Shown here: positions 26,034 through 29,588 of the stretch, one piece after another | How the letters are laid out: every line of letters starts with the position of its first letter | Numbering within the stretch: position 1 is the stretch's first letter | Assembly (NCBI RefSeq): GCF_019968905.1 | Contig: NZ_CP079946.1 | Span: 1,798,001-1,862,000 of the forward strand | Length of the DNA stretch: 64,000 nucleotides | Source: Corallococcus sp. EGB | Lineage (GTDB): Bacteria > Myxococcota > Myxococcia > Myxococcales > Myxococcaceae | Direction of reading: 5' to 3' | The notes under the pieces: model-generated | The model's database searches: none | Told to the model about the DNA's origin: nothing | What the model saw: the letters and a program-made list of their open reading frames with translations, nothing else | Translations under genes and position numbers: made by a program

Positions 26034-26795
26034 TCACGGCGCGGCGGAGTCCGCGGGCTCCACGTCCAGCCGCACGTCCACGAAGCTGTAGGCCGGCCAC
26101 GGCCCCGTGAAGCGGAACGTGTACGCGTCCAGCCGCGCCACCAGTGACTGCACCCGCGCCTCGAACGCGGCCACCCGCGTGCGGTCCACCAGGAAGGCCG
26201 CGTTGAGCAGCATCCGCTCCCCCAGCGGCGCCGCTTCGTGCACGGCCTCCGACAGCGTCCGCAGGCCGGCCTTCAACCCCTCCAGGTCCTTCGTCGTGCA
26301 TTCGCGCAGCGCCGCCTCCAGCCGCGCCTCGTGGTCCTCCTCGAGCTCGGACGGGCCGCGCGCCAGCTCCGGGTTCGCCTTCTGCAGGCTGCGCGTCAGC
26401 GCATCCCCATGGCAGTACACCTTCAGCCCCAGCTCCACCCGGCCCTCCAGCTCGGAGAGCGCCCGGCTCAGCGGCGCGCGCGCCACGCGCAAGAGTTCCC
26501 GCACGCGCTCCTCCGACGGCAGCACCGTCCCGAAGGCCACCGGCACCAGCGTGTGCCGCTGCACCAGGGCCTCCGTCACGCGCTGGTGCATCAGCAGGTG
26601 CGCCCGCGTGGGCACCACCCTCAGGCTCGCGACATCGGACACCAGCGCCGCGAGGCCTCCCTCGCGCACCGTGCGCACCGGGGCTTCACCCAGCCCCGCG
26701 ACGTCCGGCTCCCAGCCGGTGTCCTCACGGATGATGCCGTAGAGGTAGTGCGCCCGTCCCTCGCGTGGGGACTCCGCCTGGGTCTTCGTCGTCAT
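26034..26795 (-). CDS. GvpL/GvpF-family gas vesicle protein
   Basis: A 253-residue GvpL/F-family protein. The N-terminal HYLYGIIREDTG, GGLAALVSDV, the VPVAFGTVLPSEERVRELL segment (near residues 85-105), ELGLKVYCHGD and the C-terminal FTGPWPAYSFVDV are all family hallmarks. GvpF and GvpL are accessory proteins that bind GvpA during nucleation of gas vesicles. The ATG at 26795 is preceded by GGGAGG. It is the last gene of a minus-strand set with a receiver protein, a histidine kinase and a GvpA/J-like peptide. No gvpN, gvpG, gvpK or gvpS is nearby, so a floating vesicle is unlikely and another role is possible (inference). Confidence 0.9.
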   Translation of the reverse strand: MTTKTQAESPREGRAHYLYGIIREDTGWEPDVAGLGEAPVRTVREGGLAALVSDVASLRVVPTRAHLLMHQRVTEALVQRHTLVPVAFGTVLPSEERVRELLRVARAPLSRALSELEGRVELGLKVYCHGDALTRSLQKANPELARGPSELEEDHEARLEAALRECTTKDLEGLKAGLRTLSEAVHEAAPLGERMLLNAAFLVDRTRVAAFEARVQSLVARLDAYTFRFTGPWPAYSFVDVRLDVEPADSAAP

Positions 26796-26828
26796 GACGT
26801 GCCCACCTCCCTGCAGTGACATCTTCTT

Positions 26829-27239
26829 TCAGCGCCTGGATGCCGCCTCGCGCCGGGCAATCATCTTCTTCACCTGGTCCACCAGCGCGTCCGGCAGGCA
26901 CGGCTTCGTGACGTACGCGTCACACCCGGCCTCGTTCGCGTCCTCCGAGTGGCCCTTCAGGGCATGGCCCGTCAGCGCCACCACCGGGATGCCCTTGGTG
27001 CGCTCATCGCCCTTGAGCCGGCGCGTCGCCTCCCAGCCGTCCATCACCGGCAGGGACAGGTCCATCAGGATGACGTCCGGCGTCAGCTCGAACGCCTTGT
27101 CCAAGGCCTCCTGGCCGTTCTTCGCCTCCGCCACGCGGAAACCGGAGAACTCCAGGTACTCCGCGTACATCTCCCGGGCATCCTGGTAGTCGTCCACCAC
27201 CAGCACGAGCGGCTTTTGTTTTTCCGGGGTGTTCGTCAT
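26829..27239 (-). CDS. Single-domain response regulator
   Basis: A 136-residue stand-alone receiver. The acidic pair is Asp16/Asp17 (LVVDDYQD), the phospho-acceptor Asp60 is in VILMDLSLPVMDG, and switch Thr90 (VALTGHA) and Lys112 (YVTKP) are present. There is no output domain, so it must act by protein contact or as part of a phosphorelay. The ATG overlaps the stop of the histidine kinase by 4 nt, making the kinase its likely phospho-donor. The GvpL/F-like gene follows 33 nt downstream, which suggests GvpL/F or the GvpA-like peptide as possible partners (inference). Confidence 0.93.
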   Translation of the reverse strand: MTNTPEKQKPLVLVVDDYQDAREMYAEYLEFSGFRVAEAKNGQEALDKAFELTPDVILMDLSLPVMDGWEATRRLKGDERTKGIPVVALTGHALKGHSEDANEAGCDAYVTKPCLPDALVDQVKKMIARREAASRR

Positions 27240-29365
27240 GTCCGTCTCGCACGTCTTGGAAAGTGCAGGGTGAAGGTCGAACCCTGGCCCGGAGCGCTCT
27301 GGAGGGAGACGCGTCCCCCTATCATCTCGGCCAGTCGGCGGCAGATGGACAGACCCAGGCCTGTCCCCCCATAGGCCCGCGTGGGCGAGCTGTCCACCTG
27401 CTGGAAGTCCTCGAAGATCTTCTCCTGGTTCGACACGTCGATTCCGATGCCGGTGTCCTTCACCGAGATGGCCACGGTGCCGGTGGCGTTCTGATACTCC
27501 GCCATCACCTGCACGCCGCCTTCGTGCGTGAACTTCAGCGCGTTGGACAACAGGTTGAGGACGATCTGCTTCACCTTCTGTCGGTCGCTCCACACCCCTG
27601 GCAGCCCCTCATCCAGGCGCGTGTCCACCGACAGCTTGCTGCGTGCGATGATGGGGTCCATCTCCGCCATCACCTCCTGCAACAGCTCCGGAATCCCGAA
27701 GTCCGACAGGTGCAGCGGCATCCGCCCCGCCTCGATGCGGGTGATGTCCAGGATCTCGTTGATGACCTCCAACAGGTGCCGCCCGTTGGAGTCGATGCGC
27801 GTGAGGTTCCTGCGCTGCGGCGGCGTCATCTCCCCGGACACGCCCTGCAGGAGCATGTTCGTGTAGCCGAGGATGGCGTTGAGCGGCGTGCGGAACTCGT
27901 GGGACATGTTGGCCAGGAACTGCGACTTGGCCGCGCTCGCCTGCTCCAGCTGGATGGCCTGCCGGCGCAGCTTCTCGTTCTGCTCCGCCAGCTCCGCGGT
28001 GGCGGACTGCACGCGCGCCTCCAGCTCGCTGGAGACCTCCTTCACGCGCTCCAGCAGCCGCGCCCGCTCCAGCACCTCCGTGCGGTCGTGGAAGACGGTG
28101 ACGATGCCCGTCAGCTCGCCCCCGTCGCCCTGCACCTTGTTGGCCATGGCCTCCATGGGCACGGGCGCGCCGGTGGCCGGGTCGTCCAGGGTCAGCTGGC
28201 TCTTCCAGCGCGACACGCCCGCGTTCTCCGGCCCCAGCAGGTTCGCCAGGAAGGACGCGAAGAGGGCGTCGTTGGAGCGCACCCGGCGCAGCATGGCCTC
28301 GCCCGCGGGGCCCTCGCTCGCCGGGCCCTCTTCATGGGGCCATGCGAAGAGCCGCTCGGCCGGGTCGTTCATCATCACCATTCCGCCCGTGGGGTCGGTC
28401 AGGATGATGGGGTCCGCCACCGAGTCCAGCACCCGGTCCAGGCGGTGGCGCTCGCTCCGGGCCTCGCGCTCCGTGGCGCGCAGCTGCCGGTAGCTCTCGC
28501 CCAGGGCCTGCGTGGCGCGGCCCAGGTCCGTGAGGTTGCGCAGCACGCTCACCACCACGGATGGCCCGTCCGGCGCCAGCACCGGCGTGGTGATGAGCTC
28601 GAAGAGCAGGTCCATGCCCTCCAGCGGATCCACCAGCGGCACCTCGCGCCGGTGCACCGAGGTGCCGCCCTGCGTGAGCGTCTCCCGGAACAGGCGCTGG
28701 TTGAGCTCCACCGCGCGCGTGCGGCCAGGGCTCGAGTCCGGGCCCGCCACCAGCAGCGCCTCCGCGCGCGCGTTGGCGAAGAGCAGCGTGCCCTCCGTGT
28801 CCGTGAGCAGCACCGGATCCGACACCGCGTTGATGACCCGGCGGAGCAGCCGGTCCGGCTCCGGACGCCGCGGCGCCCGAGCGTCCCCGGCCAGCTGCCG
28901 GGCCAGGAGCGGCCCCGCGCACGCCGCCACCCATGCTACGTCCTCCGGCACGGCCGGGCCGGGCAGCCCCACCACCAGCAGCGCGGCCGCGGAGGCTCCG
29001 GAGCGGCCCAGCGGCACCGCCAGGAACCCACCCGGCATCGCCGCGCCCTCCACCGCGTCCGCCGCCAGCCACCGTGCCCCGGGCCGGGTGCGGGAGGCGG
29101 CGAGCGGTGAGCCGTGCGCATCCCACGCCCGGGCCAGCGCGGCCTGCTGCGCGCCCGTCAGCCCTTCGCTGGCCAGGCACGTGGACGCGCTCGCGCCCTC
29201 CGCGGGACCGACACAGGCGGCCGGCGCACCATGCCTGCGCGCGAGCCACTCCACGACCGCTCGCGCGCTGGCGACGGCGGACTCGCAGGCGAGCAGGTGC
29301 TCGGCGAGCACGAGGCGCGCCCCGGAATCGACTTCGGCGGGGGGCAGCGGGGCAGGGGACACCAC
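27236..29365 (-). CDS. GAF-PAS-PAS sensor histidine kinase
   Basis: A soluble kinase of about 709 residues. A GAF-like domain covers residues about 15-170, PAS1 about 185-300 (VINAVSDPVLLTDTEGTLLF) and PAS2 about 320-440 (RVLDSVADPIILTDPTGG), followed by a coiled coil. The H-box is MSHEFRTPLNAI with His near 489. The ATPase domain has N-box NLLSNALKF, G1 DTGIGID and G2 GGTGLGLSI. No membrane helix is seen, so it senses cytoplasmic signals. The GTG at 29365 lies 4 nt after the TAA of the GvpA-like gene, with GGAG 9 nt upstream. Other in-frame starts further upstream would overlap the GvpA-like gene. It overlaps the receiver gene by 4 nt. Confidence 0.9.
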   Translation of the reverse strand: MVSPAPLPPAEVDSGARLVLAEHLLACESAVASARAVVEWLARRHGAPAACVGPAEGASASTCLASEGLTGAQQAALARAWDAHGSPLAASRTRPGARWLAADAVEGAAMPGGFLAVPLGRSGASAAALLVVGLPGPAVPEDVAWVAACAGPLLARQLAGDARAPRRPEPDRLLRRVINAVSDPVLLTDTEGTLLFANARAEALLVAGPDSSPGRTRAVELNQRLFRETLTQGGTSVHRREVPLVDPLEGMDLLFELITTPVLAPDGPSVVVSVLRNLTDLGRATQALGESYRQLRATEREARSERHRLDRVLDSVADPIILTDPTGGMVMMNDPAERLFAWPHEEGPASEGPAGEAMLRRVRSNDALFASFLANLLGPENAGVSRWKSQLTLDDPATGAPVPMEAMANKVQGDGGELTGIVTVFHDRTEVLERARLLERVKEVSSELEARVQSATAELAEQNEKLRRQAIQLEQASAAKSQFLANMSHEFRTPLNAILGYTNMLLQGVSGEMTPPQRRNLTRIDSNGRHLLEVINEILDITRIEAGRMPLHLSDFGIPELLQEVMAEMDPIIARSKLSVDTRLDEGLPGVWSDRQKVKQIVLNLLSNALKFTHEGGVQVMAEYQNATGTVAISVKDTGIGIDVSNQEKIFEDFQQVDSSPTRAYGGTGLGLSICRRLAEMIGGRVSLQSAPGQGSTFTLHFPRRARRT

Positions 29366-29369
29366 GACC

Positions 29370-29588
29370 TTACGCTCCGGGCAAAGGGGGACGCGGGGAA
29401 CGACCGCGCTCCAGCGAGTCTGCGGTGCGGACCTCCGAAAATGCCACCACGATGCGCGCCTCCCCGTCCCGGGACGCGGTGCGACACAGGGCCTCCAGGG
29501 CCTGCGTGTCGAAGCGCAGCCCCCTGTCCAGCAGGCGGTCCAGCACGTCCACGAGACTGGTCCCACCCGACACGCGTTCCACGGGCAT
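29370..29588 (-). CDS. GvpA/GvpJ-like small gas-vesicle-family protein, divergent
   Basis: A 72-residue peptide, the usual GvpA length. MPVERVSGGTSLVDVLDRLL resembles the GvpA N-terminal helix (SLAEVIDRILDKGIVID), and EARIVVA matches the second conserved strand (EARIVIA). The hydrophobic beta segment between them, VRVSLVGIELL in GvpA, is replaced here by a more polar stretch (residues about 29-42). The shell-forming hairpin may therefore be lost, or this may be a GvpJ/M-like minor protein. ATG 29588 was chosen because AGGAG lies 10 nt upstream; ATG 29597 is too close to it. It leads the operon with the kinase, receiver and GvpL/F-like genes. Family assignment is by eye. Confidence 0.65.
   Translation of the reverse strand: MPVERVSGGTSLVDVLDRLLDRGLRFDTQALEALCRTASRDGEARIVVAFSEVRTADSLERGRSPRPPLPGA

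Follow-up and report, generated by a model that had tools for sequence, protein, structure and literature searches.

A myxobacterial kinase-receiver locus that probably descends from a gas-vesicle operon

Gas vesicle proteins are known for building a buoyancy organelle. In the myxobacterium Corallococcus sp. EGB, four consecutive genes on the minus strand encode a short peptide related to the vesicle protein GvpA, a histidine kinase, a stand-alone receiver and a protein of the GvpL/F family. They lie in a 64,000-nucleotide window, by which we mean the whole stretch of DNA that was analysed (C1:1798001-1862000, in a genome of 9.43 Mb on a single contig). Judging from gene order, sequence similarity and trees, this locus very probably arose in place by the stripping down of a gas-vesicle operon with the order gvpJ-gvpA-kinase-receiver-gvpF-(gvpG)-gvpF-gvpJ-gvpF-gvpK. 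The other vesicle genes would have been lost from the locus, gvpA would have been cut to a peptide carrying helix alpha-1, and the kinase, the receiver and the adjoining GvpF/L gene would have been retained. This origin is well supported. The best reading of the present function is an exapted signalling mechanism, and the make-up of the locus suggests that vesicle-building parts have been turned into a signalling unit.

The locus and its genes

The four open reading frames at 26034-29588 on the minus strand, with their order and spacings, had been set out in a preliminary description made from the sequence, and a check of reading frames and sequence bore them out. Peptide residues are numbered throughout on the 75-amino-acid form.

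29370-29588, minus strand: gene of the GvpA-derived peptide, 72 amino acids from the conserved start MPVER, or 75 from an upstream ATG at 29597
29514-29564, minus strand: codons for peptide residues 12-28, the equivalent of GvpA helix alpha-1 (from the selection pattern and an AlphaFold2 helix at 15-25)
29375-29378, minus strand: GGAG, resembling a ribosome-binding site, ahead of the kinase and within the final peptide codons
27236-29365, minus strand: histidine kinase, 709 amino acids, with HisKA, HATPase_c and PAS matches in Pfam
26829-27239, minus strand: stand-alone receiver, 136 amino acids, without an output domain (PF00072, 91.9 bits)
26034-26795, minus strand: GvpL/F family protein, 253 amino acids (PF06386, 209.3 bits)

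The peptide gene stops 4 nucleotides (nt) before the kinase start, the kinase and receiver genes overlap by 4 nt, and 33 nt separate the receiver from the GvpL ATG; from an alternative in-frame ATG at 26822, GvpL would start 6 nt after the receiver. A further ATG lies 9 nt upstream of 29588, yet most peptide orthologues begin with M[PA]V, and the start at 29588 chosen earlier is thus the conserved one.

Probable descent from a gas-vesicle operon with a two-component system

Gas-vesicle clusters that contain a related kinase and receiver carry the argument for descent. In five genomes of the same taxonomic order (G116, G118, G125, G150 and G154; G and L numbers label genomes and loci) the gvp clusters run gvpJ-gvpA-kinase-receiver-gvpF-...-gvpJ-...-gvpK, with kinases 48-50% and receivers 61-72% identical to those of the window and a gvpG match in three of the five. 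Closer to home, a Myxococcaceae metagenome-assembled genome (MAG; G044, locus L093) has a full GvpA in the slot of the peptide (PF00741, 60.5 bits). Its order is a GvpJ-type gene, full gvpA, kinase, receiver, GvpL and a further gvpF, and its gvpK is on a different contig. An alcohol-dehydrogenase gene that lies near the window locus (32735-33886) also adjoins the G044 cluster, which points to erosion in place.

The arrangement is found well beyond the family. Among the loci found by scanning public genomes with a GvpL profile, 60 belonged to none of Corallococcus, Myxococcus and Citreicoccus, and in 29 of these 60, gvpA, kinase, receiver (one or more) and gvpF stood in a row. This is not a population frequency, because the best 80 of 292 loci were taken and the profile included four GvpFs from kinase-receiver gvp clusters (that of G044 and three more); moreover, five of the 29 duplicate contigs already described, those of G044, G116, G125, G150 and G154. 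The titles among the 29 are those of Acidobacteria, Rokubacteria, Planctomycetota and Myxococcota or Deltaproteobacteria MAGs. Eight more of the 60 start with kinase-receiver-gvpF or receiver-gvpF; seven of these are at a contig end, and L249 has room upstream without a gvpA match. Ten end in gvpJ-gvpA-kinase, nine of them titled Gemmatimonadetes, Gemmatimonadaceae or Gemmatimonas, and 13 have other arrangements (L214 was regrouped by eye). As side observations, clusters of the gvpJ-gvpA-kinase type have a related kinase at the cluster end and no receiver or gvpF behind it (L199, L205, L206, L208, L214, L216, L223, L226, L237, L246), and some Rokubacteria gvp clusters (L196, L198, L204, L213, L225, L247) have a second kinase-receiver pair behind gvpF, 32-36% similar.

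Trees agree with this picture, with support given as Shimodaira-Hasegawa-like approximate likelihood-ratio values (SH-aLRT) in a quick mode, long branches and some weak inner forks. In the combined kinase and receiver tree, the rows with full gvp clusters branch outside those of the stripped loci, and the main clade has an SH-aLRT of 87 (L249 is labelled there as a full gvp cluster though no gvpA match lies beside its kinase). In the receiver tree, the nearest paralogues fall outside the receivers of the locus and of the gvp clusters (SH-aLRT 98), and one gvp-cluster row, L145, sits among the locus rows at a poorly supported fork. Tree and operon place together make the window kinase and receiver orthologous to those of the gvpA-kinase-receiver-gvpF clusters. 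Their relatives inside gvp clusters, the trees and the shared neighbouring gene therefore point to an ancestral gvp operon in which this two-component system was already present. The earlier idea that Gvp parts were newly recruited to signalling falls with this, since other Myxococcota and other phyla already have the pair placed between gvpA and gvpF.

The complete operons of Myxococcota, Acidobacteria, Rokubacteria and Planctomycetota MAGs thus resemble the window locus in a related kinase and receiver at the same place, on the same strand and in the same order. They differ in a full-length gvpA, in having gvpJ, gvpK, further gvpF genes and partly gvpG, and in a polycationic gvpF tail that is absent from the window GvpL. 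The locus itself lacks full gvpA, gvpJ, gvpK and a further gvpF. That the window has no other gvp genes, as first described, held for the families searched: there was no PF00741 match above the cut-off, no PF05121 match and no second PF06386 match, and models for gvpG and gvpN were not run. Neither this type of gvp operon, with its kinase and receiver, nor the stripped form was described in the open-licence papers listed, as judged from titles and the openings of abstracts and with two of the listings seen in part. The words 'kinase' and 'two-component' are absent from the accessible main text of a 2022 review of gvp clusters (PMC9501494), and the accessible text of a gvp-cluster screen has no mention of 'kinase' or 'response regulator' (PMC10344784). 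Regulators of the gvrA-C kind are known from proteobacterial gvp loci; the case at hand is Serratia sp. ATCC 39006, where, according to the accessible part of the report, gvrA-gvrB-gvrC lie inside the gvp locus and are needed for full gvpA1 expression (PMC4982088). There, GvrA is an NtrC-like sigma-54 regulator (PMC4982088), whereas the present locus has a kinase with an output-less receiver and no vesicle genes left.

The GvpA-derived peptide

Family models detect the window peptide faintly. It scores 15.6 bits against PF00741 (E 0.018, 14 of 39 positions), below the curated cut-off of 25, and the NCBIfam GvpA models give E 1.9e-5 (residues 4-53) and 1.9e-4 (residues 13-52), both far below the model cut-offs. 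The profile match to Gvp families proposed earlier as a check is therefore there in NCBIfam and weak in both collections. Homology to GvpA is secured because the orthologues link the peptide to full GvpA, with PF00741 scores descending from 60.5 bits in L093 through 29.8 in L104 (above the cut-off), 20.2 in L091, 17.2 in L088 and 15.7 in L079 to the 15.6 of the window. By these sequence links the peptide shares descent with GvpA. Its derivation from GvpA with loss of the shell hairpin, as first proposed, is upheld by the orthologues, the graded intermediates and hydropathy.

The retained part is short. The ratio of nonsynonymous to synonymous differences per site (pN/pS; pairwise Nei-Gojobori without a phylogenetic model, 16 disjoint pairs of relatives) is 0.18 for residues 5-11, 0.193 for 12-28, 0.716 for 29-45, 0.65 for 46-58 and 0.55 for the tail, and strong conservation is confined to residues 12-28 plus 5-11. 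The difference between alpha-1 (12-28) and the former hairpin (29-45) has a Fisher p of 9e-6 on rounded counts, and it recurs within genus-level groups (n = 9, 19 and 8), with 0.29, 0.21 and 0.13 for residues 4-28 and 0.69, 1.00 and 0.91 for residues 29-45. On these sequence comparisons, helix alpha-1 is under purifying selection and the former hairpin is nearly free. D17, D20, R21, G26 and R28 are invariant in 39 of 39 peptides; R28 stands at the first strand of the former hairpin, where two full GvpAs have V. Together with the conserved gene order, the selection on alpha-1 led us to reject a chance reading frame.

The hydrophobic beta-hairpin that builds the shell is missing. Hydropathy of the former hairpin is -0.57 in the window and -1.25 to 0.01 across the 39 peptides; two full GvpAs reach 1.49 and 1.54. 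AlphaFold2 predicts helices at 15-25 and 31-40 and zero strands, at low confidence (predicted local distance difference test score of 65). The EARIV element noted earlier is present in the window peptide and is not a conserved element, its E being found in 7 of 39 peptides.

Distribution and losses

Peptide matches (E <1e-5) occur in 53 of 96 genomes of the family. One of them, G044, is the full GvpA, which leaves 52 genomes of 5 genera with the peptide. Every one of the 53 has a match to GvpL too, though it is a remnant in G065 and is split in G039, G040 and G041, and in 50 of the 53 both lie on one contig, about 3-4 kb apart; they are on different contigs in G061, G074 and G078. Conservation of the four-gene order across relatives, which the preliminary description had put up for checking, was confirmed: among 40 fetched stretches, 39 have the slot gene, kinase, receiver and GvpL in order on one strand, 38 with the peptide and L093 with full GvpA. 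GvpL is a remnant in one of these ordered loci (L101). The fortieth, L107 (G043), is cut by a contig end and starts inside the kinase, and no peptide was found elsewhere in the G043 genome. The gap between peptide and kinase is 4 nt except in L093, L102 and L103, and the overlap of kinase and receiver is 4 nt except in L093 and L108; these exceptions are partly effects of start choice or frame. With its start chosen anew, GvpL begins 3-33 nt behind the receiver in all loci but L098, where the distance is 284 nt, and L101, which is damaged. Named records with the locus belong to Corallococcus, Myxococcus/Pyxidicoccus and Citreicoccus. A record titled Comamonas sp. KCTC 72670 (BNCN01000002.1, L186) also has a Myxococcus-type locus (GvpL 53%, receiver 80%), and its label is probably wrong. 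A plasmid search gave a single short match of 82 bases.

Peptide and GvpL are present together and absent together. Twelve genomes that have no peptide (G001, G002-G007, G031-G034 and G080) do have receiver orthologues, 74-82% identical. In the nine of these that were fetched (L157-L164 and L170; G004, G007 and G032 were left out), kinase and receiver stand without a trace of peptide or GvpL by tblastn and profile, and all nine adjoin the FAD/Rieske gene, which is the same address. The PAS region is missing from the nine kinases, and it is kept in 40 of 40 checked Myxococcaceae kinases beside a peptide or GvpA (the L107 kinase is cut). The kinase and receiver tree suggests about two such loss events, one in G001 and one for the rest. 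At most, the joint loss of peptide, GvpL and PAS hints at a PAS region that functions together with the Gvp partners. A Corallococcus draft, G021, has neither peptide nor GvpL and a paralogous receiver only, which may be a loss or an assembly gap.

Next to the locus in the window, and divergent from it, are the FAD/Rieske oxidoreductase gene (29815-31329) and a hemerythrin gene (31343-31900), which recur in relatives. Counting the window locus, 29 of 41 stretches include the divergent oxidoreductase. Hemerythrins were also seen near the gvp clusters L144 and L201. An oxygen or redox context of the locus is possible.

Kinase and receiver

The kinase has a GAF-like N-terminal domain (about 1-165), PAS stretches from 173 and at 308-428, a coiled coil, HisKA at 479-547 and HATPase at 594-705. 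Its two PAS domains, as first described, are matched by Pfam in two stretches. There is no GAF match to the N-terminal domain in Pfam; in our reading, the secondary structure predicted by AlphaFold2 follows the order of GAF elements, so that on the model a GAF identity is plausible. Foldseek matches are to kinases and phytochromes, with low whole-chain TM-scores. The N-terminal domain was not seen in the kinases of L090-L092 and L102-L106, where PAS, peptide and GvpL are present. Kinase and receiver both have the phospho-acceptor and catalytic motifs of two-component proteins. H489, N604, N608, D637, G639, G641, G669 and G671 of the kinase are invariant in 20 aligned rows, and D16, D17, D60, T90 and K112 of the receiver we take, by CheY-type rules, to be its conserved sites.

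The GvpL/F protein and its basic tail

The GvpL/F identity assigned earlier stands firmly, with a PF06386 match of E 1.2e-61 over model positions 2-245 of 245 and profile matches to solved GvpF structures (6l5d, 7.4e-30; 4qsg, 1e-25). The window protein is below the cut-offs of the NCBIfam equivalogs for GvpL and cyanobacterial GvpF. It also lacks a Lys/Arg-rich N-terminal tail that is common among its relatives: the tail is kept in many GvpLs of Myxococcus type and L091 type and is absent in Corallococcus, Citreicoccus (L088, L089), L090, L102 and L103. A separate small gene in the gap between receiver and GvpL in Myxococcus was considered and rejected, as the gap is this in-frame basic tail.

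In gvp clusters, the GvpF directly 3' of the receiver has an N-terminal tail that is K/R-rich and H1-like in 42 of 42 rows, which represent 38 distinct contigs because 4 rows repeat contigs (loci L143-L147, L150 and L192-L250), with a median of 62.5 amino acids and a median net charge of +12.5. Other GvpF rows have a tail in 9 of 75 cases, at least 3 of them with clearly wrong start codons (tails of 148-586 amino acids), and GvpFs after a kinase without a receiver in 1 of 3; this control leaves out rows in which no YxYG motif could be recognised. The sequence of the tail suggests that the ancestral GvpF bound nucleic acid or another polyanion.

What the locus may do

In Halobacterium, as the accessible part of a split green fluorescent protein study reports, GvpF gave a relative fluorescence of 41 with GvpA residues 1-22, 20 with whole GvpA and <1 with fragments 20-47 and 44-76; the GvpA substitutions that lowered the GvpF signal were at G20, D24, R28 and E40, and also at R15, K19, A27 and G33 (PMC7688916). 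The retained alpha-1 is thus the part that binds GvpF on its own. By our alignment offset, R15 and G20 of GvpA correspond to R21 and G26, two of the invariant peptide residues; the place of K19 holds R in 29 and Q in 10 of the 39 peptides, and that of D24 holds D in 29 and E in 7. In the same source the pair serves shell assembly, whereas here GvpA has lost its shell part and the helper belongs to a different GvpL/F branch. The alpha-1 result has also been discussed for Bacillus megaterium as a sign of early binding (PMC11445434, accessible text). On the split-protein result, a probable ligand of GvpL survives at the locus, together with GvpL, kinase and receiver.

The best explanation overall, at evenly balanced confidence, is that the pair of GvpL and helix was exapted into a kinase-receiver pathway. 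By analogy with the haloarchaeal proteins, the peptide would be a dedicated ligand of GvpL, binding through alpha-1 as GvpA does with GvpF. The kinase would autophosphorylate at H489 upon a cytoplasmic cue sensed by its PAS and GAF-like domains, and the phosphate would then pass to the receiver. Without an output domain, the receiver should act by protein binding, and its target would most likely be the GvpL-peptide complex of the same operon. An old loop, in which the kinase and receiver were tied to GvpF loaded with GvpA, would then have outlived the organelle and now have another output. Given the origin, this analogy-based mechanism, with the peptide as GvpL ligand and the receiver acting on GvpL-peptide, is tentative and slightly short of an even call: we infer that the peptide would bind GvpL here, that the receiver would touch GvpL and that an output would follow. 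The sequences themselves show the genes, their order and orthology, the pattern of selection, and peptide and GvpL being present or absent jointly.

A more specific form makes GvpL/F the output arm of the kinase and receiver. The phosphorylated receiver would control a DNA- or polyanion-binding GvpF whose state is set by its load of alpha-1, and a switch that senses the pool (kinase, receiver, GvpL and an alpha-1 decoy) would have been kept after vesicle loss. This version is rather unlikely; if true, it would give Gvp proteins a role outside the organelle.

Several observations weigh against exaptation. At the place of GvpA R28 the peptides have R in 12 of 39, H in 8 and, in the window, L, and the E of E40 is kept in 7. 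In B. megaterium the primary partner proposed for GvpA2 is GvpF, not GvpL (PMC11445434, as far as accessible). The second predicted helix is poorly kept (pN/pS 0.65), and L088 and L089 lack it. Among the three larger genes, constraint is weakest on GvpL, with pN/pS of 0.50-0.62 against 0.36-0.38 for the kinase. GvpL is apparently internally deleted in the Myxococcus-group draft G065 (L101), where peptide, kinase and receiver are kept, and its middle is shorter in L102 and L104. In the nine loci that keep kinase and receiver alone, the pair is independent of peptide and GvpL, and with about two events behind the joint losses, the coupling of the two rests on few events.

These observations feed the main rival, a decaying remnant in which the kinase and receiver alone matter, the peptide is kept by translational coupling to the kinase and GvpL is drifting to loss. 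It would account for the persistence of kinase and receiver at the same address, for the near freedom of the peptide past alpha-1 and for the loose constraint and partial deletion of GvpL. The GGAG in the last peptide codons, which all 16 of the 16 peptide loci compared have and the full gvpA of L093 lacks, also fits a leader, together with the 4-nt gap to the kinase. However, a mere leader has no need of its amino acids, and those of alpha-1 are kept (pN/pS 0.19, five sites in 39 of 39); a new invariant Arg, R28, arose as well, and the peptide was retained in 52 genomes of 5 genera. We consider the remnant unlikely on balance, though it is the strongest competitor of exaptation.

The locus could also regulate, in trans, a canonical gvp cluster, with peptide and GvpL helping or sensing vesicle assembly. 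This genome has a complete-looking cluster at about C1:2208352-2215212, some 380 kb off, with three GvpA/J, GvpG, GvpK, three GvpL/F, a CDC48-like ATPase and an Hsp20-like protein (GvpA/J, GvpL/F and GvpK confirmed by family search, the other names being a reading of translations), and related kinase-receiver pairs do lie inside gvp clusters. Yet no canonical gvpA was detected in 39 of the 52 peptide genomes, drafts included, as against 13 that have one; in the 96 family genomes, canonical gvpA (PF00741) is found in 17 and GvpK in 15. G002, G004 and G007 have canonical gvpA and no peptide match, and the kinase-receiver locus of G002 is without peptide and GvpL. Regulation in trans is accordingly improbable.

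A complete cluster elsewhere had been named beforehand as a point against a novel system; it is present and yet leaves the locus unexplained. It shares the GvpA/J and GvpL/F families with the locus and differs by its GvpG, GvpK, CDC48-like ATPase and Hsp20-like protein and by having no such kinase or receiver (none among its translations as read). With no related pair and a sporadic presence in the family, the cluster does not explain the locus, and the idea that the locus is a piece split off from it was rejected on its other make-up and this sporadic presence. Among 16 genomes of the genus, a canonical gvpA/gvpK match was seen in this genome only, which suggests horizontal gain or many losses.

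The earlier idea, in which the kinase monitors a scaffold or filament of GvpA-like type, has clear GvpA ancestry on its side and is very improbable; we reject it because the rib-forming hairpin is gone, its segment evolving nearly freely, being non-hydrophobic and carrying Arg at the first strand in 39 of 39 peptides, with two helices and no strands in the low-confidence prediction.

Significance

In several myxobacterial genera, a single GvpA helix and a single GvpL/F protein have been retained along with the kinase and receiver of the operon, in most genomes without a canonical gvpA. This amounts to a natural dissection, in which the helix reported to bind GvpF is kept and the shell part has decayed, and it points to a role of GvpF/L and alpha-1 outside shell assembly. 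Such a role is testable in Myxococcus xanthus. The relatives of the locus also provide a lead on the control of gas-vesicle operons with a built-in two-component system in several phyla.

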